This document shows positions 1 through 10,194 of a stretch of DNA of 64,000 bases, piece after piece. The stretch is from Alphaproteobacteria bacterium (GTDB taxonomy: Bacteria; Pseudomonadota; Alphaproteobacteria; Micavibrionales; Micavibrionaceae): the NCBI GenBank assembly GCA_018000295.1, contig JAGNKE010000005.1, positions 1 through 64,000 of the forward strand, given 5' to 3'. The stretch's first letter is position 1. Each line of letters begins with the position of its first letter. The notes under the pieces were generated by a model. The model was not told the DNA's origin. It saw nothing but the letters and a program-made list of their open reading frames with translations, and made no database searches. The position numbers were made by a program, and so were the translations under genes.

Positions 1-398
1 TAATTAATACCGGCACCGACATAGGGGCTGAATTGCTTATCCGGGGTAAAGTGGTATTGGAGCATCAGGGTCGGAGGAAGAACCCATGCATCCCCCAGAT
101 CCACATTCCCCGTGTACTCAAGATCATGCTTGGAGGTCGCCGCGATCAGCTCAGCAGCAATATTCTGCGTAAAGAAGTAGGAAACGTCCACCTCGGGAGT
201 AATGGCATAATCGGCATCGACCTCGCCCCCGATATTAACACTGGAATCCACATCGGGAATGACGTCAATCGCACGGACACGAACTTGAAACCGCTCCTTG
301 GACCAAGGACCGCCAAGGTCTTTGGCAAAAGCAGGAACTGCGAACGCGGCAACCGAAACGGCGGCAGCAAGACTGAGAGCGAGAGCTTTATTAAACAT
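1..398 (-). CDS. ompW: OmpW-family outer membrane protein (3' part beyond left edge)
   Basis: The reading frame starts at 398 and runs leftwards off the window, so only the first 132 codons are present. It opens with a clear signal peptide (MFNKALALSLAAAVSVAAFA, cleavage probably after AFA at about residue 22). The mature part has OmpW-type features: an early VRVRAIDVIPD strand, TPEVDVSYFFTQNIAAEL, and LPPTLMLQYHF followed by SPYVGAGIN. OmpW proteins are eight-stranded beta-barrels of the outer membrane, roughly 210 aa long. The ATG at 398 is preferred over the one at 404 because AGGA lies 8 nt upstream of it. An FNR box with class II spacing lies about 80 nt upstream, fitting the oxygen control known for ompW in other proteobacteria. 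Confidence 0.85.
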   Translation of the reverse strand, partial: MFNKALALSLAAAVSVAAFAVPAFAKDLGGPWSKERFQVRVRAIDVIPDVDSSVNIGGEVDADYAITPEVDVSYFFTQNIAAELIAATSKHDLEYTGNVDLGDAWVLPPTLMLQYHFTPDKQFSPYVGAGIN

Positions 399-443
399 AA
401 CCATTATCCTTTTCTGATCAAAGGCTGTTTCGAACCTTGCCGG

Positions 444-491: not shown

Positions 492-683
492 CTATTGTTT
501 TTCAGATTTCACAGAATTTTTTTCAGGCATCTTTTGAGGCCCGCCGTCGTCCTCCATCAGGATACGGATGGCTGCACCCTCAAGATCATCATATTGCCCG
601 CTTTTGATGCTCCAGATAAACGCCCCAAGCCAGATCAGCCCCAGAAGAAGGGCAATAGGAATCAGATACATCAGAACACTCAT
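492..683 (-). CDS. ccoS: cbb3-type cytochrome oxidase assembly protein CcoS
   Basis: A 63-aa protein with one N-terminal membrane segment (about residues 5-26, rich in L, I, A, G and W) followed by SIKSGQYDDLEGAAIRIL, the conserved CcoS signature, and a charged tail. CcoS is needed for insertion of haem and copper into the cbb3 oxidase in Rhodobacter. It is the last gene of the ccoGHIS assembly block; its start overlaps the end of ccoI by 4 nt (ATGA type), so the two are translationally coupled. Confidence 0.93.
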   Translation of the reverse strand: MSVLMYLIPIALLLGLIWLGAFIWSIKSGQYDDLEGAAIRILMEDDGGPQKMPEKNSVKSEKQ

Positions 684-2932
684 ATCCGCCCCCGCAGCCT
701 GAACGAATTGGCGATGACAACGATCGAAGAACCGGACATAGCCAGCGCCGCCACCATCGGCGTCACCATCCCGGCAAACCCCAGCGGAATGGCAATCGCG
801 TTATAAATCATGGCCAGAACAAAATTTTCCTTAACGAGCTTCTGGGAAAAAGCAGCTACACGGCGAGTTTCGCAAACGGGGCCAAGATTTTGTCCCATAA
901 ACACAATATCAGCGGCGCTTTGCGCCATATCCACGGCTGTTCCTGGGGCCATGGAGACATCGGCCCCGGCAAGCACAGGCGCATCGTTCAGCCCGTCACC
1001 GACCATCAGAACCTTATGCCCTTGTTTTTTATACCCTTCCAGAATGTCAAACTTTTGCGGCGGTGTGCGCTCAGCGAAAACATCCTCGGACCCAATACCC
1101 GCTTGCCGCGCAATATCAAGGGCGACATCAGTCCGGTCCCCGGACAAGAGAACAACCCTCAGGCCATCGTCCTTTAAATTCTGGATGGTGAGCCGCGCAT
1201 CCTCCCGTAAGAGATCGCTGAAGGAAAAAAGAACGGGGGCACGCCCCTCCACGGCCAGCCACAATTCCGGACCTTTGGCCGCAGGAGCGTCCACCGGGCC
1301 GCACCATTTCCGGCTACCGATCTTCACGACCTTGCCCTCATACTGTGCCAAAAGCCCCTCCCCCGGGTGCTCCTGCACACCCGAAAATTTTAAAAGCCTT
1401 CCCTCATAAGCCTCCACCAAAGCCTGTGAGAGCGGATGACGGCTGTGAGACGCCAGAGAAGCCGCCAGCCTCATATCCTCAGGTGCAGCCCCCTTTTCCA
1501 GCTTGGGATGCCCCAGCGTTAAAGTGCCCGTCTTATCAAAAATAACCGTATCCACCTTCGCCAGCCGCTCCAGCGCATCACCGGACTTAACCATAACGTG
1601 TGCCTTCATCAAACGACTGGTCGCCAGAACTTGCACAACAGGAACGGCCAGCCCCAAAGCGCAAGGACAGGTGATAATCAAAACGGTCACCGCGATCATC
1701 AACGCTTCCTGCCAGGCAATCCCGATAACAGCCCACCACAACAGGAAAGCCGAAGCAGCCAGAATATGCACAACGGGCGTATACATCTTCGCCACCCGAT
1801 CCGCCAGACGGACATAATGCGCCTGCCCCTGCTCCGCCTTTTCCATGAGGCGGACAATATCCGAAAGCAAAGAATCCTCGGCGGCTTTAGCCACTCGCAA
1901 AGTCACCGGGCCGGAGAGATTCATCGTCCCTGCATAGACATCCCCGCCGACAGGAACAAGACGCGGCAGGGTCTCTCCGGTCACCAGCGATGTGTCAACC
2001 TCGGCTACCCCCTCAAGAACATTCCCGTCGACCGGAAATTTTTCCCCTGCGGAAACCAGAACCACCATGTCTTCCTTTAAATCCCGGATAGGCACATTGC
2101 GCGTTTGCCCGCTTTCAACCACACGCGCAAAACCCGAAAGTGTGGACATCAGATCAGTCGCCGCGCTCCGCGCATGGCGCCGGGCCCGGAAATCGAGATA
2201 ACGCCCGATGAGTAGGAAAAACAAAAGCATCACCGCAGAGTCGAAATAAACATGCTCGGCATGGCGCAAAACTTCAAAGACGCTCATCACACAAGCCAGA
2301 ATGACCCCGACCGAAATCGGCACATCCATATTGGTATGCCCGTGGGATAAGGCTTTAAAAGCAGAACGGAAGAAAGGCCGACCGGAAAAAATCACGGCGG
2401 GAATGGCAATAAGCGCCGAAACCCAATGCATAAAATCACGGGTCACCAGCCCCATCGTCTCGTTATCAGTCGTCCAGAGCGCAGAAGACAACAGCATGAT
2501 ATTACCCATCGCAAAACCGGCAACACCAAGACAGATCAGAAGAGACTTCTCCTCCTCTGTCTCCTCCAGATGGGCGCGGGCATCAAAGGGCCGAACTTCG
2601 TAACCGAGTGTGTTGACCAGCGCGACCAACTCATTCCCGCGCTGAGCAGGGCCGCGCCAGCGTATATTCAAACGCCGCGTAGAAAAATTCAGCCGCGCCC
2701 CCTCGATATCCGGCAGCGCGGAAAGCGAAGATTCGATTTTCTGGATGCATCCCGCGCAGTGAACACCGCTCACGATAACATCAAGCGAATACGAACCCTC
2801 GGGTGTCAGTCGCACCAGCGACTCATAACCGGAGAGAGGATCGCCGTTCTTCGTAGAATTTACTTCGTGACGAACCGATAGGTCGTCCGATAAGACTGCC
2901 CGTCCCATTGTGCCTCCATCTTCGCAGTCCAT
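680..2932 (-). CDS. ccoI: Copper-transporting P1B-type ATPase CcoI (FixI)
   Basis: A 750-aa P-type ATPase that supplies copper for cbb3 oxidase assembly. Visible are the N-terminal heavy-metal domain with GVHCAGC (Cys59 and Cys62), membrane segments from about residue 130, the CPC metal site in ITCPCALG (about residue 420), the phosphorylated Asp in DKTGTLT (about 465) and the hinge GDGLNDAP (about 641). Length is usual for FixI/CcoI. The two ATG candidates (2932 and 2908) both lie inside ccoH, so the genes overlap by 49-73 nt; which one is used is open. The order ccoG-H-I-S is the standard assembly block. Confidence 0.95.
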   Translation of the reverse strand: MDCEDGGTMGRAVLSDDLSVRHEVNSTKNGDPLSGYESLVRLTPEGSYSLDVIVSGVHCAGCIQKIESSLSALPDIEGARLNFSTRRLNIRWRGPAQRGNELVALVNTLGYEVRPFDARAHLEETEEEKSLLICLGVAGFAMGNIMLLSSALWTTDNETMGLVTRDFMHWVSALIAIPAVIFSGRPFFRSAFKALSHGHTNMDVPISVGVILACVMSVFEVLRHAEHVYFDSAVMLLFFLLIGRYLDFRARRHARSAATDLMSTLSGFARVVESGQTRNVPIRDLKEDMVVLVSAGEKFPVDGNVLEGVAEVDTSLVTGETLPRLVPVGGDVYAGTMNLSGPVTLRVAKAAEDSLLSDIVRLMEKAEQGQAHYVRLADRVAKMYTPVVHILAASAFLLWWAVIGIAWQEALMIAVTVLIITCPCALGLAVPVVQVLATSRLMKAHVMVKSGDALERLAKVDTVIFDKTGTLTLGHPKLEKGAAPEDMRLAASLASHSRHPLSQALVEAYEGRLLKFSGVQEHPGEGLLAQYEGKVVKIGSRKWCGPVDAPAAKGPELWLAVEGRAPVLFSFSDLLREDARLTIQNLKDDGLRVVLLSGDRTDVALDIARQAGIGSEDVFAERTPPQKFDILEGYKKQGHKVLMVGDGLNDAPVLAGADVSMAPGTAVDMAQSAADIVFMGQNLGPVCETRRVAAFSQKLVKENFVLAMIYNAIAIPLGFAGMVTPMVAALAMSGSSIVVIANSFRLRGRI

Positions 2933-3336
2933 AGGCCAGACAGGGGCACATGGAGTTCAGCAGCATACACGCCACTGTCAACAGGCGTCAAAATAAGCTC
3001 GAAATCATACCCTGCCTGCACGGGACGGATCATTTTTGCGGTCACTTTGGCCGCCTCAATGGGGTGTCCGTCCCTATCCTTTAATGAAAGTTTTAGCAAA
3101 GGCGCATCATAGGAAACCTCATGCTGAACGCCCAATTCCTTTTGCAAACGGCTTTCTTCCAACAAACTATCGTAAGCCAACCCCTTCTCATATGCCTTGT
3201 CGGTCACAACTCCGGTTTGCGAAGTGATAGCGATATAAACAAAAATGGAATCTAAAATGATGAATACCGCAAAAAACAAAACAAAATACCAGGGAATCCA
3301 TTGATCGCTCGGCCTCGGGCCAGTTGTGGGCTTCAT
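2860..3336 (-). CDS. ccoH: FixH/CcoH family cbb3 oxidase assembly protein
   Basis: About 158 aa. One membrane segment follows a short cytoplasmic N-terminus (WIPWYFVLFFAVFIILDSIF), then a periplasmic beta-rich FixH domain that includes DRDGHPIEAAKV and ends with GQSYRTTYRFV. CcoH is a membrane protein that associates with the cbb3 complex during assembly. A longer frame reaches 3384, but the ATG at 3336 has GAGG 8 nt upstream and begins just after the ccoG stop, so it is preferred. The 3' end overlaps the start of ccoI. Confidence 0.88.
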   Translation of the reverse strand: MKPTTGPRPSDQWIPWYFVLFFAVFIILDSIFVYIAITSQTGVVTDKAYEKGLAYDSLLEESRLQKELGVQHEVSYDAPLLKLSLKDRDGHPIEAAKVTAKMIRPVQAGYDFELILTPVDSGVYAAELHVPLSGLWTAKMEAQWDGQSYRTTYRFVTK

Positions 3337-3346
3337 GGAATAAACC

Positions 3347-4765
3347 TCAGGGTCTCTCGCTGATAAAGACGCTCTCATAGGCATCCTGCACTCCTGTGGC
3401 TATATCGGTCAAGGTAAACACGACCGGACGAGCTTCCCCCGGCTGGACCGGAGCACTTACAAAAAGATGATAGTCGCCGACACTATCCGCTTGAACGGGC
3501 AAAGACACCGCACTTAACGCTCCTGGACCCTTGACCTCAATTTGCGCCTGCTCCAAGCCGGAAACACTAACCTTGAAGTTCTTGTCATTGTGCGTCTTGT
3601 TAAGAATCTTCAGCGTATATCCATTACGGATCGCCCCGTCCGACAACTGAACGAATAAGGGATTGCGGTCGTGAAGAACGTGCAGTTCCAGAGGCGCCCG
3701 CATAACCAGCCCGTAAAGCATGATGCCGCCCACAACGGCCAGAATGATGGAGTAATAAATCGTGCGCGGACGGATGATCCTGAATTTCTCCTCAATCCCC
3801 TCCGCTCTTAATTTGACATGCCGTTCCGTATCGTATCGGACAAGTCCCCGGGGCAGGCCCACTTTATCCATAATGTTGTTGCAGGCATCGACGCACAACC
3901 CGCAAGCAATGCATTCCATCTGCAGCCCGTCACGGATATCGATTCCCATCGGACACACCTGAACGCACGCCGTGCAGTCCACGCAATGCCCGCGCCCGTC
4001 CCACGGATCGCCCTGCTTGTGCTTGCCCCGCTTCTCTCCACGCGCTTCGTCATAGCCAATGATCAGGGTATTATCGTCAAACATCGCCGACTGGAACCGC
4101 GCATAGGGACACATATAAATGCACACCTGCTCCCGTGCGAACCCAGCCATCAGGTAGGTGCTGAAAGTCAAACCGCCGATAAAAGCCAGAACGGTCGGAG
4201 AAACATTAAATTCAAAGAAACTCCAGACCAGTGTCGGCGCATCGTTGAAATAAAGGACGAACGACCCCGCCGTACACCATGCAATCGCCAGCCAGCACAA
4301 ATGCGTCACGGCGATCTTCCAGACCTTCTCCCAACTCCACGGACCCTCCTGCAGCTTCTTGCGCTTGTTCCGGTCGCCCTGAACGATCCGCTCCACCCAA
4401 ACAAACAAATCCGTCCAAACCGTCTGCGGACAGAAATACCCGCACCACACCCGCCCGAACAGGCTGGTTACAAAGAACAGGGCAATCGCGGCAAGGATAA
4501 GGATACCCGTCAGGAAATAGACTTCCTGTGGCCAGATTTCGATAAAAAACCAGTAGGCGCGGCCATGAGAGAGATCAATCAGTATAGCTTGGTCCGGAGC
4601 ATTCGGCCCGCGGTCCCAGCGCAGGAAGGGCGCCAGGTAATAGATCCCCAGCGTCCCGACCATCGCGACCCACTTGAGCTTTCGATACCGTCCCCAGACC
4701 CGCTTGGGGTAAATCCGTTCCTGCTTGGCAAAAAACGTGATGGGCTGTTCGTTATTCTCCGTCAT
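3347..4765 (-). CDS. ccoG: Cytochrome c oxidase accessory protein CcoG (RdxA/FixG)
   Basis: A 472-aa polytopic membrane ferredoxin-like protein. It has several membrane segments, the conserved CGYFCPQTVWTD motif, and two 4Fe-4S motifs of the form CxxCxxCxxxCP and CxxCxxCxxxC (CVDCTACVQVCP, CIACGLCVDAC). The C-terminal part is an Ig-like periplasmic domain. CcoG is a copper reductase involved in delivering copper to the cbb3 oxidase. Its start overlaps the end of ccoP by 14 nt. Confidence 0.95.
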   Translation of the reverse strand: MTENNEQPITFFAKQERIYPKRVWGRYRKLKWVAMVGTLGIYYLAPFLRWDRGPNAPDQAILIDLSHGRAYWFFIEIWPQEVYFLTGILILAAIALFFVTSLFGRVWCGYFCPQTVWTDLFVWVERIVQGDRNKRKKLQEGPWSWEKVWKIAVTHLCWLAIAWCTAGSFVLYFNDAPTLVWSFFEFNVSPTVLAFIGGLTFSTYLMAGFAREQVCIYMCPYARFQSAMFDDNTLIIGYDEARGEKRGKHKQGDPWDGRGHCVDCTACVQVCPMGIDIRDGLQMECIACGLCVDACNNIMDKVGLPRGLVRYDTERHVKLRAEGIEEKFRIIRPRTIYYSIILAVVGGIMLYGLVMRAPLELHVLHDRNPLFVQLSDGAIRNGYTLKILNKTHNDKNFKVSVSGLEQAQIEVKGPGALSAVSLPVQADSVGDYHLFVSAPVQPGEARPVVFTLTDIATGVQDAYESVFISERP

Positions 4766-5876
4766 GACCAGATGTTTCTGTGTTGTCGGCCGGAGGCAAA
4801 GTCTCCATAGCTTTCACCGGATTAACTTCGGCCCCCTCGGAAGGTGCAACCTCAGTTTCTACCGGAACGGTCGGCGGCACAAGCTCGTTTTGACCCTGCT
4901 TTTCCGGTTCGGAAACCACAGGCTCTTCTTGCGGAACAGCCTCAGGAACTTCGACAGGTGCGGCTTGTACTGTCTTTCCGGTCTCCCCACCGCCCAGCTC
5001 ATGAACATAGACGGCAAGCTGCCTGATCGTATTCTCATCAAGCCGCCCAACCCAGTTCGGCATCATTCCGGCGCGGGCATAGAAGACCGTATTGAAGACA
5101 GATTCGCGGTCTCCACCATAAAGCCAGATCGAGTCCACAAGATTCGGAGCGCCAAATTCACGCAGCCCTTTTCCATCTTCGCCATGGCAGGAAGCGCAGT
5201 TCTGTTCGAAAATCCCCTGGGCTTCTGTGAAATCCTTACCCGCCGCGTTCTGAGGATCGGAAAGGCTCAGGACATAATCAACAACTTTCTCGATCTCCTC
5301 TTTGTTGAGTAGATCTTCGATCCCGAACGCAGGCATCTGCGACACCCGCGTATCATCATGTTTTGACCGGATACCAAACTGAATGGTCTGGTAGATAGAG
5401 GCAATGTCACCGCCCCACAGCCAGTCGTCATCGTTCAGGTTGGGATACCCCTTCCCGCCCATGCCGCCGGTCCCATGACAGGTCGCGCAGTTATCCTTAA
5501 AGAAAGCCGAACCCCCGGCCATAGCAAACGCGTAAAGCTGCTCGTCCTTGAAAATTTCGTCGAAAGAAGCCTTCTCGAATTTCTCCAGATAGGCTTTCTG
5601 GCGGTCCACAATCTCCTGCTGCTCAGCAGCCAATTTCTTATACTGGGTCCAGCCGTAAGTCCCCTCGGTCGCACCGCTCAAAGTTGGCCAGGCCGGATAA
5701 ACCACCCAATACCAGATCGACCAGATCACGCAGATATAAAACACCCACAACCACCAGCGCGGCGCCGGATTATTTAACTCTTTAATTCCGTCCCAATCAT
5801 GACCCGTCGTCTCCACTCCTGAAACGCTGTCGATCTCTTTTTTGGTAGGAGTGTGCCCTTTTTTTGCGTCACTCAT
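4752..5876 (-). CDS. ccoP: cbb3 oxidase subunit III, dihaem cytochrome c (CcoP)
   Basis: A 374-aa membrane-anchored dihaem cytochrome c. An N-terminal FixP domain with the WWLWVFYICVIW membrane segment (about residues 41-60) is followed by two haem-binding sites, CATCHG (Cys130, Cys133, His134) and CASCHG (Cys227, Cys230, His231). Start: the frame reaches 5906, but the ATG at 5876 (MSDAKKGH) follows AAGGAG at 7 nt spacing. The last ~75 residues are an acidic, proline-rich tail (many E, V, P) that CcoP proteins of about 290-310 aa lack. It overlaps ccoQ by 8 nt and ccoG by 14 nt. Confidence 0.95.
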   Translation of the reverse strand: MSDAKKGHTPTKKEIDSVSGVETTGHDWDGIKELNNPAPRWWLWVFYICVIWSIWYWVVYPAWPTLSGATEGTYGWTQYKKLAAEQQEIVDRQKAYLEKFEKASFDEIFKDEQLYAFAMAGGSAFFKDNCATCHGTGGMGGKGYPNLNDDDWLWGGDIASIYQTIQFGIRSKHDDTRVSQMPAFGIEDLLNKEEIEKVVDYVLSLSDPQNAAGKDFTEAQGIFEQNCASCHGEDGKGLREFGAPNLVDSIWLYGGDRESVFNTVFYARAGMMPNWVGRLDENTIRQLAVYVHELGGGETGKTVQAAPVEVPEAVPQEEPVVSEPEKQGQNELVPPTVPVETEVAPSEGAEVNPVKAMETLPPADNTETSGHDGE

Positions 5877-6024
5877 AATCGCTCTCCTTAAGGGGAATAC
5901 CTGCATAATCTTGATAAGTTTTCTTCGAGCCGGGCCGGAAAACCCACAACGCCATCAGCACAAAGAAGCTAAAGAAAAACAAAAGTCCGATCAGTCCGGC
6001 GTTCAGTGCAAACCAATCCATCAT
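5869..6024 (-). CDS. ccoQ: cbb3 oxidase small subunit CcoQ
   Basis: A 51-aa protein in the gap between ccoO and ccoP. It begins [18 protein letters not shown], has a single membrane segment to about residue 28, then [18 protein letters not shown], which is the CcoQ pattern of a cytoplasmic stretch with conserved Tyr and Pro. CcoQ stabilises the cbb3 complex. The ATG at 6024 forms an ATGA overlap with the ccoO stop, and its own stop lies 8 nt inside ccoP, so translation of ccoO, ccoQ and ccoP is tightly coupled. An SD-like GGAGG lies in the end of ccoO. Confidence 0.92.
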
Positions 6025-6764
6025 GGCGCAGCCTCCTCAATCTCTTCGGTAGCGTTGAAATCAACCATGGTTCCGAGAACCTGCAGATAGGCCACCAGAG
6101 CGTCCATCTCGGAAATAAGGTTTGGTTGCCCGTCGAAATCCCGTGCATTGACCGTCTCGCCGTAGCGGGCTGTCAAGCCGGACGTATCCATCTTGGCCTC
6201 TCCGGTCGCTTGGGCAACGGCGTCTTTCTCGGCGTTCTCGATCATCTCGTCCGTGTAGGGAACGCCAACAATCCTGAGCGTTTTCAGATGCTGGTCCAGA
6301 TCGTCGATCTTCGCACCGGTACGGAGCAGGAAGCTGTAAGAGGGCATGATCGACTCAGGCACAACATCACGAGGACGTTTAAGATGCGCGGTATGCCAGT
6401 CATCGGAATACTTGCCGCCAACGCGGGAAAGATCAGGCCCGGTCCGCTTCGATCCCCACTGGAACGGGTGGTCGTACATGGACTCGGCCGCCAGAGAGTA
6501 ATGCCCGTAACGGGCAACCTCATCCCGCAAGGGCCGGATCTGCTGCGAATGGCAGTTATAGCACCCCTCGCGGATATAGATATTATACCCGGCCAGTTCC
6601 AGCGGCGTATAAGGCCGCACACCTTTCACCGGCTCGATCACCGTCTCCATCCGGAACAGCGGGATGATTTCCACCAACCCTCCGATCAGGACGACCACGA
6701 CCACACAGACAAGAAGCAAAATGGAATTTTTTTCTAGTTTTTCGTGTTTTTTCAAAAAGCTCAT
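6021..6764 (-). CDS. ccoO: cbb3 oxidase subunit II, monohaem cytochrome c (CcoO)
   Basis: A 247-aa protein with one N-terminal membrane anchor (about residues 14-34) and one haem-binding motif, [13 protein letters not shown] (Cys68, Cys71, His72), the hallmark of CcoO/Fix[16 protein letters not shown] and the final VAYLQVLGT are also family-typical. It passes electrons from CcoP to the catalytic subunit. It starts within 4 nt of the ccoN stop and ends at the ccoQ start. Confidence 0.96.
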
Positions 6765-8212
6765 GCGACTGCTCCTTTTAATACGCCGTCGTTTTTATAT
6801 TCTTTTTCACAGACATCGCCCTTGATCGTCCGATAGAAATTGTAGGCCATGATCAGCGCACCCACGAGATACAGTGCACCGCCAAGCGCACGGATTAGGT
6901 AGAACGGATGCATGGCCATGACAGACTCGACGAACGAGTATTCAAGGAAGCCCATGTCATTGTAGTCCCGCCACATCAGACCTTGCATGATGCCGGAAAC
7001 CCACATCGCGGCGATGTAAAGCACAATCCCGATCGTAGCGACCCACAGATGCAGGTTGACCAGCTTCATCGAGTACAGCTTCTCGCGGCCCCACAGGACG
7101 GGAACCATGTAATAAAGCGCACCGAAACTGATGAACCCGACCCAGCCCAGCGCACCGGAATGCACGTGACCGATCGTCCAGTCGGTATAGTGCGAGAGCG
7201 AATTCACCGACTTGATCGACATCAGCGGCCCTTCGAACGTGCTCATGCCGTAGAAGGCCAGGGAGATAATCATAAACCGCAGCACGGGGTCTTCGCGCAG
7301 CTTGTGCCACGCCCCCGAAAGCGTCATCACGCCGTTAATCATCCCGCCCCAGGACGGCATCCAAAGCATGATGGAAAACGTCATGCCCAAAGTCTGCGCC
7401 CAATCCGGCAAAGCCGTATAATGCAGGTGGTGTGGCCCCGCCCACATATAGATGAAAATAAGTGACCAGAAATGCAGGATCGATAGCCGGTAGGAATAAA
7501 CCGGACGCTCCGCCCTTTTCGGAACGAAGTAATACATCATGCCCAAGAATCCAGCCGTCAGGAAAAATCCGACCGCGTTATGGGCATACCACCACTGGAT
7601 CATCGCACTCTGCACTCCGGCGAAAACCGTATAGCTCTTGGCCCCGGTCCACGAAACAGGAATAGACAATCCGTTCCCGAGGTGAAGCACGGCGACAGTG
7701 ATAATGAAAGCCAAGTAGAACCAGTTCGCCACATAAAGATGCGGCTCCTTGCGCTTCATGACTGTACCCAGATAAACCAGCAGGTAAGCCACCCAGACAA
7801 TCGTCAGCCAGAGATCAACAAACCACTCCGGCTCGGCATATTCTTTGCCCTGCGTAGCCCCGAGAACATAACCAAGCGCCGCCATGACAATCACAAGCTG
7901 ATAACCCCAGAAGGTAAACATCGCCAGCCCGTCGCCCCACAACCGCACGCGGCAGGTTCTCTGCACCACAAAATAACTGGTAGCAAACAGCGCGTTCCCC
8001 CCGAAAGCAAAAATCACCCCGGAAGTATGCACGGGCCGCAAGCGCCCGAACGTGAGATAAGGCTCAAAATTAAGATCGGGAAAGGCCAGCTGCAGGGCGA
8101 TGAGAAGACCGACTAGAAAACCAACGATCCCCCAGAAGACCGTGGCCAGCGTAAACAGCCGGACGACGTGATAATTATACTCTTGATGCTCTGTGACGGC
8201 TTGTGCACTCAT
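6761..8212 (-). CDS. ccoN: cbb3 oxidase catalytic subunit I (CcoN)
   Basis: About 483 aa, twelve membrane segments. Haem-copper oxidase residues are visible: the CuB histidine region [15 protein letters not shown], the [19 protein letters not shown] stretch with the paired histidines and the cross-link tyrosine region, and the haem ligand region [17 protein letters not shown]. This is the proton-pumping, high-affinity oxygen-reducing subunit used under low oxygen. The frame extends to a TTG at 8242, but the ATG at 8212 ([10 protein letters not shown]) is the likely start, with GGGA about 10 nt upstream. It lies 19 nt after the stop of the preceding membrane-protein gene, suggesting one transcript. 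Confidence 0.96.
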
Positions 8213-8231
8213 ATCTTGCCATTCCCTTTTC

Positions 8232-8951
8232 TTAAAAAACAAAAGCCCCCGCCAGCAAAACCAGCCACAGAGCGCTAAAAACCATAAAACCCTGTTTCAC
8301 CTTGACAGTGTTCAGGAACCTGAAACTCTCTAAAAAACTGCCACCCAGTGCCACCGCGACAAGGGCAGGAACCGTGCCCAGTCCGAAAGCCGCCATCGCA
8401 GCGCCGGCCTGCAACGCGGAGGAAGCAGTAGCAGAGGCCATCAAGGCGGACACAACCAGGCCGCAGGGCATAAAACCGAGCAAAACCCCAAGAGCATAAC
8501 GGGACGCCGCATCGCGCTCACGCACCAAAGGCTGATAAAAACGCGAGATCCAGCGGAAAGGGACAGACAGCCGCACCCGCGCTACCCACGGAAAAACCTG
8601 AGCAATCGCGGGAAAAGCACTGACAAGAAACATCAGAGCCGCCAGAAGGAGCATCGGCGCCACCAGAACGGTCCGCAAGGGCTGAAAGAGGAAGGCAAGG
8701 TTAAGAACGCTGCTGAAAAGAACCGCAAGGAATACGTAAGTAGTCAGACGGCCAAAATGATAGGGAAGCAGCAAGGAATTTCGAATCCTCGATAACGCGT
8801 CGGCAGGACGCTCAATGGACCCACTTTGAGCCAAAACAAAGGGTGAGCACATCAGGGCGCAATGCGTGAATCCGCCCGCCAATCCCGCAAAAAAAAGGCT
8901 GAGGGGCAGACCGTAACCGATCACAAACTGATGGACGCACTCTCCAAACAT
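8232..8951 (-). CDS. DsbD_2/TauE-SafE-like membrane protein leading the cco operon
   Basis: A 239-aa polytopic membrane protein with about six hydrophobic segments. The conserved motif [10 protein letters not shown] (about residues 26-35) and [11 protein letters not shown], one in each half, are characteristic of the DsbD_2 (UreH-like) family, often labelled sulfite exporter TauE/SafE. Members are commonly found beside ccoGHIS and fnr/anr genes and are suspected of metal or thiol handling for cbb3 assembly; the substrate is not known. Here it is the first gene of the operon, 21 nt after the inferred FNR-dependent transcription start and 19 nt ahead of ccoN. Confidence 0.8.
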
Positions 8952-8978: not shown

Positions 8979-9034
8979 ATTCTGGCCTCAAGACCACAGC
9001 CATGCCTTGACCTTTATCAAGTAAATCCTATAAA
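8979..9034. promoter_or_regulatory. Shared divergent FNR-box promoter region (cco operon / fnr)
   Basis: TTGACCTTTATCAA at 9007-9020 matches the FNR consensus in 9 of 10 half-site positions. Leftwards, 22 nt lie between the box and CAGAAT (8984-8979), a class II arrangement for the cco operon with a start near 8972. Rightwards, TTGACC (9007-9012) and TATAAA (9029-9034) are spaced 16 nt and form a sigma70-type promoter for the regulator, with its start near 9041, almost at the ATG. The box covers that -35 element, so the same site could activate the operon and repress the regulator. The sites are seen; the regulation is inferred. Confidence 0.75.
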
Positions 9035-9042
9035 AACACAGG

Positions 9043-9813
9043 ATGAGACAAGTTAAAGTCAAAGAGAAAGCATCAGCCGCAAATTCCGCGGATTTCCTGA
9101 AATCAATACCCTTGTTCAGCGGATGCACCGGAAAAGAGCTAGAGTTCCTCCTAGAGGGATACGTTCTTGAACACTGCAACAAAGGCCGCGTGCAGTTTGT
9201 GAACGGCGATAAAGCCGAGCGCTATTACATTATCAAAAGCGGCTGGGTTAAAATTTTCCGCGAAACGCTCGACGGCGCACAAGCCATTATTGATATTTTG
9301 ACGCAAGGACACGCATTCGGCGAAACCTCGATCTTCGAGGAAAACCGATACCCCTACAGCGCCGAAGTCGTCGAGCCATCTGAAATTCTATCGCTGTCCC
9401 TGAAAAAACTTCAGCACCTGATAGAAACGAACCCAAAATTCGCCCTCTCAATGCTCAGTTCGATGGCGCGTTACCGTCGCCAGCAGGATCAGGAAATCGA
9501 ACACCGTTCCCTGCAAAACGCGCCGCAGCGCATTGGGTGTTTTGTCTTGAGGCTGGTTCCCAACCAGAACGAACTCAAGGGTCGCCCGATCACTATTCAC
9601 CTGCCCTACGATAAAACCCTGATCGCCTCGCGCCTCGGGATGCAGCCGGAGACTTTCTCCCGTGCCCTCACAAAACTGAAGGAAGCCACGGGAATAACCA
9701 TAAAGGGCTCAACACTGGAAATGGCAAGCATCGACTCGCTGGTACAGTTCGCCTGCACAGCCTGCACGTCCGAATATCCATGCAAGGACACCGGCTGCAA
9801 CGCCTGTACCTGA
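9043..9813 (+). CDS. Crp/Fnr-family regulator with C-terminal cysteine cluster
   Basis: A 256-aa regulator with a cyclic-nucleotide-type beta-roll (about residues 20-125), dimer helix and winged helix. The recognition helix contains PETFSRALTKLK; Glu203, Ser206 and Arg207 match the ExxSR pattern that reads TTGAT in FNR. The cysteines of classical FNR near the N-terminus are absent (only Cys28 and Cys45). Instead five cysteines lie at the extreme C-terminus: Cys238, Cys241, Cys247, Cys252 and Cys255. Bacillus subtilis Fnr likewise binds its 4Fe-4S cluster through C-terminal cysteines, so oxygen sensing by this tail is plausible (inference). AGG is directly before the ATG and the inferred leader is nearly absent, so translation may be close to leaderless. 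Confidence 0.88.
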   Translation: MRQVKVKEKASAANSADFLKSIPLFSGCTGKELEFLLEGYVLEHCNKGRVQFVNGDKAERYYIIKSGWVKIFRETLDGAQAIIDILTQGHAFGETSIFEENRYPYSAEVVEPSEILSLSLKKLQHLIETNPKFALSMLSSMARYRRQQDQEIEHRSLQNAPQRIGCFVLRLVPNQNELKGRPITIHLPYDKTLIASRLGMQPETFSRALTKLKEATGITIKGSTLEMASIDSLVQFACTACTSEYPCKDTGCNACT

Positions 9814-9816
9814 CGC

Positions 9817-10194
9817 TCATTCCACCCTGCTATGAAGGCTATGAAGCCACTCCCAGTCGATCTTGGCGGGATTATTGATATACTCATAAGGATTACGGAT
9901 TACGCCTTCAAGATAGCTCTTCGTGACCTTCCATTTTTTTTGCGGGAGTGAGTTAAAGCGCTCCTCAGCCAGAACAACCCGGCAGCTTTTCTCATAAACA
10001 ATACAAAACCCCTCTGCGGGCTGGTCATCAACAATCAGAACCTGAACGGAATTACCACTCAATGCTTGCCGCCCTAAACCATCAAGGATCTGCCGAAACG
10101 GAAAGCGGTGCTTATTATTATCCAACGCCTCGTTGCAAACAGAAATATAACGCTCAAAAAGCGCACGGTTGCTGGGATCATTAAGCGAATGCAC
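9817..10194 (-). CDS. Hypothetical protein under a putative FNR promoter
   Basis: A 125-aa soluble protein with no membrane segment or signal peptide; I do not recognise the family. The start is a GTG at 10194 (MHSLNDPSNRALFERY) with AGAGGA 6 nt upstream. The middle has a hydrophobic beta-rich stretch (VQVLIVDDQPAEGFCIVY, about residues 51-68), and the end, from YLEGVIRNPYEYINNPAKID to WEWLHSLH, is aromatic-rich and looks like a conserved motif. Two cysteines (FCIVYEKSC) lie close together. An FNR box with class II spacing lies upstream, so it probably belongs to the same low-oxygen regulon as the cbb3 operon. It converges with the regulator gene, 3 nt apart. Confidence 0.72.
   Translation of the reverse strand: MHSLNDPSNRALFERYISVCNEALDNNKHRFPFRQILDGLGRQALSGNSVQVLIVDDQPAEGFCIVYEKSCRVVLAEERFNSLPQKKWKVTKSYLEGVIRNPYEYINNPAKIDWEWLHSLHSRVE

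Follow-up and report, generated by a model that had tools for sequence, protein, structure and literature searches.

FNR is the model oxygen sensor, and DNR is regarded as a sensor of haem or NO. The canonical FNR proteins (FnrL, FnrP) combine an N-terminal cysteine motif with one central cysteine in the sensory domain. B. subtilis Fnr is liganded instead by C227-x2-C230-x4-C235 together with Asp141 (PMC3520743), and the cluster of Bacillus Fnr sits in the C-terminal DNA-binding domain, C-terminal clusters having been described for Gram-positive bacteria (PMC12937710). In a comparison of 50 alphaproteobacterial genomes the relatives of FnrN and FixK were of the FnrN, AadR, FixK and FixKf types only; FixK and FixKf control cco operons through boxes similar to those reported below, but lack the cysteine cluster, and FixK is FixLJ-dependent (PMC4999443). 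A literature search that took in only a minority of subscription journals found no Crp/Fnr protein with C-terminal cysteines in alphaproteobacteria.

The window (the whole stretch of DNA that was analysed, 64,000 nucleotides) comes from a bacterium related to the predatory Micavibrio and encodes a regulator (Table 1) whose Pfam matches, PF00027 (1.2e-19) and PF13545 (9.2e-9), are both over cut-off and assign it to the Crp/Fnr superfamily; no NCBIfam equivalog is matched over cut-off, and the canonical FnrL model of NCBIfam scores 19.5 bits against a cut-off of 300. Translation of 9043–9813 (+) gives cysteines at positions 28, 45, 166, 238, 241, 247, 252 and 255, the last five of which form the tail C238-x2-C241-x5-C247-x4-C252-x2-C255 within the final 19 residues (238–256), as had been reported in a sequence-only reading of this DNA. 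That reading had also described the N-terminal FNR motif as missing and the ExxSR residues as FNR-like; both descriptions stand, as Cys28 and Cys45 form no N-terminal motif and are unconserved in the alignment, and the recognition helix reads E203-T-F-S206-R207. With FnrL, FnrP and FnrN the regulator shares the Crp/Fnr fold, ExxSR, FNR boxes, linkage to cco, class-II promoter spacing and the number of conserved cysteines, four; unlike them, it has its site shifted to the C-terminus and the hinge.

Table 1. Coordinates of the regulator gene, its motifs and the neighbouring features (positions in the window).
Feature	Position	Strand	Remarks
Crp/Fnr regulator	9043..9813	+	256 aa; DNR-like core, C-terminal cysteine tail; PF00027 + PF13545
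Cys166 codon (QRIGC), start of DNA-binding domain	9538..9540	+	proposed fourth ligand; 101/101 type I
Recognition-helix motif E203-T-F-S206-R207, FNR-like	9649..9663	+	invariant in alignment except T204
Core tail motif C238-x2-C241-x5-C247	9754..9783	+	invariant or >=90% in homologues
C252 + C255, same-genus extra tail cysteines	9796..9807	+	five-cysteine tail in 3/186 sequences
FNR-type box TTGACCTTTATCAA	9007..9020		between regulator and divergent cco operon
DsbD_2/SafE-like membrane protein, first gene of divergent cco operon	8232..8951	-	PF13386 1.6e-35
ccoN, cbb3 oxidase catalytic subunit	6761..8242	-	PF00115; TIGR00780 1.3e-230
ccoO	6021..6764	-	PF02433
ccoP	4752..5906	-	PF14715, PF13442
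ccoG	3347..4765	-	TIGR02745 over cut-off
ccoH-like	2860..3384	-	by position between ccoG and ccoI; no NCBIfam model
ccoI-like copper P-type ATPase	680..2932	-	TIGR01511 over cut-off
orf125, uncharacterised, convergent with regulator	9817..10194	-	homologue in 39/80 loci
FNR-type box TTGATTTCGGTCAA	10260..10273		upstream of orf125

Three sets supplied the homologues: 58 relatives, a class-wide sample and a group of named genomes, which took in Micavibrio, Kordiimonas and further alphaproteobacterial MAGs. In a phylum-wide sample they occur at E<=1e-50 in 13 of 398 genomes, 12 of these from the same class. Cys166, Cys238, Cys241 and Cys247 are invariant across 27 aligned homologues and conserved to at least 90% in 80, so that the three tail positions among them cannot be put down to chance. 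The full five-cysteine tail is confined to 3 of 186 sequences, all of the same genus, and Cys252 and Cys255 are therefore local additions. The proposal that the tail cysteines are conserved in homologues thus holds for Cys238, Cys241 and Cys247 and fails for the last two, which are found in three genus-mates only; the weight placed earlier on five cysteines rather than three is not upheld, and the five-cysteine tail was rejected as a defining feature because two of its five residues are genus-specific. The span to which the sequence-only reading had drawn attention, 9754–9813, covers the tail only; that reading passed over Cys166, which is conserved together with the tail and brings the conserved set to four cysteines.

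The Crp/Fnr sequences were clustered to a set of 103, comprising 47 of type I (proteins with a CxxC..C tail), 12 of type II (a paralogue group with the tail LCxxC-x7-C-x7-C) and 44 tail-less relatives. In type I, columns 166, 238, 241 and 247 are each cysteine in all 47 clustered rows, with no further cysteine column at 70%, and Cys166 is likewise present in every unclustered type I sequence. The 44 tail-less relatives have no conserved cysteine column (Cys166 occurs in 6), and the 12 type II sequences never have Cys166 and instead carry four conserved cysteines in the tail. These counts give four conserved cysteines for each tailed group, which, judged from sequence, would be the trace expected of a four-ligand metal or cluster site, whether of iron or of zinc. 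The link between Cys166 and the tail may reflect one or a few ancestral events, as independent pairs on the tree are few.

The AF2 model of the regulator matches CRP/FNR folds. Its closest solved relatives, in sequence as in fold, are SPOA0323 (3fx3/3h3z) and DNR (3dkw); they differ from it in having neither Cys166 nor the tail, and none is matched across the tail, which is a low-confidence part of the model (pLDDT 54–64). For comparison with B. subtilis Fnr, a working sequence that agrees with the published D141, C227, C230 and C235 was aligned. Taking that sequence to be correct, C227, C230 and C235 align column for column with C238, C241 and C247, Asp141 with His154, and Ser153 with Cys166; the position of Asp141 would then be His in 78 of 101 tail proteins and Asp in none. 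Both proteins have a CxxC pair and a third C-terminal cysteine, but the third follows after x4 in Bacillus and after x5 (x6 in some relatives) here, and the fourth ligand, Asp141 in Bacillus, is in the regulator probably Cys166, a better candidate than His154 because it is kept in 101 of 101 sequences against 78 of 101. The regulator differs further in being alphaproteobacterial, in its DNR-like core and in its linkage to cco. Because this core is closest to tail-less DNR-like proteins an independent origin is favoured, and the tail site may have arisen independently of Bacillus Fnr, which is not among the sequences of the tree; the earlier suggestion of an independent alphaproteobacterial equivalent of Bacillus Fnr is considered probable.

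The regulator gene, usually divergent from ccoNOP-ccoG, here stands back to back with a SafE-like gene that is followed by ccoN-O-P-G-H-I; of 80 fetched homologous loci, 45 contain ccoN and 38 the SafE-like gene. Of the 58 relatives, 23 carry the main-clade regulator and 35 do not; ccoN is present in 21 of the former and 8 of the latter (Fisher p 4e-7, uncorrected for phylogeny). In the eight ccoN genomes without the main-clade regulator, a type I regulator of the CGHC clade adjoins ccoN in two and a type II regulator in two. Kordiimonas loci have neither a box on the regulator side nor ccoN as a neighbour. Canonical FNR is scarce in the same genomes: the FnrL model finds no match in 57 of the 58 relatives, and the one match (in G013) is an FNR with a real N-terminal CxxC..C that adjoins a ccoI-like gene, in a genome that has ccoN and no tail regulator. 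In the class sample an FnrL-type match is present in 153 of 385 genomes, none of which is among the 10 type I genomes, and none of the three HTH-bearing Crp/Fnr regulators of the regulator's own genome has an N-terminal FNR motif. G013 belongs to the same family, and a swap of sensor type is possible there.

The window contains three copies of the motif TTGAY-N4-RTCAA, at 473, 9007 and 10260, versus 0.28 expected. The centre of the box at 9007 is ~62 bp from the SafE-like ATG, and its end lies 22 bp before the ATG of the regulator itself, which suggests autoregulation. A box is found upstream of the regulator in 53 of 80 homologous loci versus ~0.8 expected and, as the TTGAC-N4-GTCAA type, in 42 of 45 cco-adjacent loci, and 44 of 55 regulator-upstream boxes have C as their fifth base; the earlier view that the probable sites are FNR boxes is supported. 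Homologues of orf125 have an FNR box upstream in 34 of 39 cases, and orf125 is probably a second target. On the cco side, 41 loci match TATAAT best on average at box base 37 (3.22 of 6, versus ~1.8), equivalent to -12 to -7 when the box is centred at -41.5, and the maximum for 36 orf125 promoters is likewise at base 37 (3.28). A box at -41.5 with such a -10 spacing is class-II FNR geometry, and this spacing came out of the aligned loci without being assumed beforehand. On the regulator side of the box the aligned loci show no comparably strong -10-like peak, and a sigma-70 scan of the regulator/cco intergenic region found no promoter. As far as sequence can indicate, the ExxSR residues and the predicted TTGAY-N4-RTCAA targets at class-II spacing are FNR-type features.

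Two further Crp/Fnr paralogues of the same genome, one of them type II, lie in a nitrate respiration/anaerobic island (contig C11, 5000–38000), in which a narK-like gene, narG, narH, ubiT, ubiU, ubiV and nrdD were identified by NCBIfam models and the remaining genes were assigned by position or by eye. The type II paralogue (C11:23536) and two others of its type have the tail LCxxC-x7-C-x7-C without Cys166, possibly a second C-terminal metal site; type II paralogues adjoin ccoN in genomes G048 and G051. The other island paralogue (C11:10046) and its relatives represent a third type, with two tail cysteines only (FCD...PC) and, where the regulator has Cys166, Ala or Thr.

The reading judged probable is that of an FNR-like low-oxygen switch for the cbb3 oxidase, with a [4Fe-4S] cluster on Cys166 and Cys238/Cys241/Cys247; from the patterns above we infer the metal, oxygen as the signal, the regulator as the protein that binds the boxes, and the direction of regulation. 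The protein would be an FNR-like switch, built on a DNR-like core, that controls low-oxygen respiration at the level of transcription, its single oxygen-labile cluster lying beside the DNA-reading helices. At low oxygen the intact cluster would lock the domain into the conformation that binds DNA; the dimer would then occupy the TTGAY-N4-RTCAA box centred ~41.5 bp upstream of the cco and orf125 starts, recruit RNA polymerase in the class-II FNR manner and so activate both the operon and orf125. Oxygen would break the cluster down and release the domain. The wider proposition, that the Micavibrio-like/Kordiimonas-like lineage has an FNR of independent evolutionary origin, with an all-cysteine [4Fe-4S] site in the DNA-binding domain that combines hinge Cys166 with the three tail cysteines, and a sister form whose fourth cysteine is in the tail, replacing canonical FNR at the cbb3 locus, is about evenly balanced.

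Other ligands and other uses of the cysteines have to be weighed against this reading. The cluster might be held by the tail cysteines together with His154 or Glu153 of the dimerisation helix, Cys166 serving for packing only: Glu153 is invariant in tail proteins, and His154, which presumably aligns with Asp141, the corresponding ligand in B. subtilis Fnr, is enriched in them (0.79 versus 0.05, clustered). Yet His154 is lost in 23 of 101 tail proteins and Cys166 in none, and type II, without Cys166, has a fourth tail cysteine of its own, so that such ligation is not very probable. It is unlikely that a structural zinc, bound by the four cysteines, fixes the tail to the DNA-binding domain while something else, such as haem or NO in the DNR-like sensory domain, acts as effector; four-cysteine sites are typical of zinc as well, and the core is nearest to DNR-like proteins, but the regulator sits beside cco where FnrL/FnrP would be found, canonical FNR is missing alongside it, and the arrangement of its cysteines agrees with that of the Bacillus Fnr Fe-S site (PMC3520743). 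That the tail is a metal-free thiol/disulfide redox switch is very improbable, since the third tail cysteine and Cys166, superfluous for a CxxC switch, are also invariant, even though CxxC pairs are common redox motifs and one paralogue has just two tail cysteines.

A different objection concerns the boxes, which a Crp/Fnr paralogue of the nitrate island might bind while the regulator described here has another role. All three regulators of the genome share the ETFSR recognition motif, and the C11 island holds 8 of the 26 boxes in the genome; however, every one of these eight reads TTGAT-N4-ATCAA, while TTGAC-N4-GTCAA is the form preferred upstream of the regulator, and boxes travel with the regulator and orf125 across dozens of loci, which makes this explanation quite unlikely. 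If the preferred reading, a C-terminal Fe-S switch acting on cbb3, is true, it would represent a second, apparently independent C-terminal placement of the cluster, now in proteobacteria, with two solutions for the fourth ligand; it would show how oxygen sensing can be rebuilt on one fold, and would account for oxygen control in a lineage that lacks canonical FNR.

The orf125 family is matched by no Pfam or NCBIfam model. Foldseek finds a weak resemblance between the AF2 model of orf125 (pLDDT 83) and the SCP2 domain of UbiJ (E 0.035, prob 0.93), and the protein may be a low-oxygen factor that binds quinones or lipids. At the edge of the window an ORF assigned by eye as OmpW-like (3–404, minus strand) has an FNR box upstream, at 473–486; in E. 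coli, ompW is among the targets of FNR.
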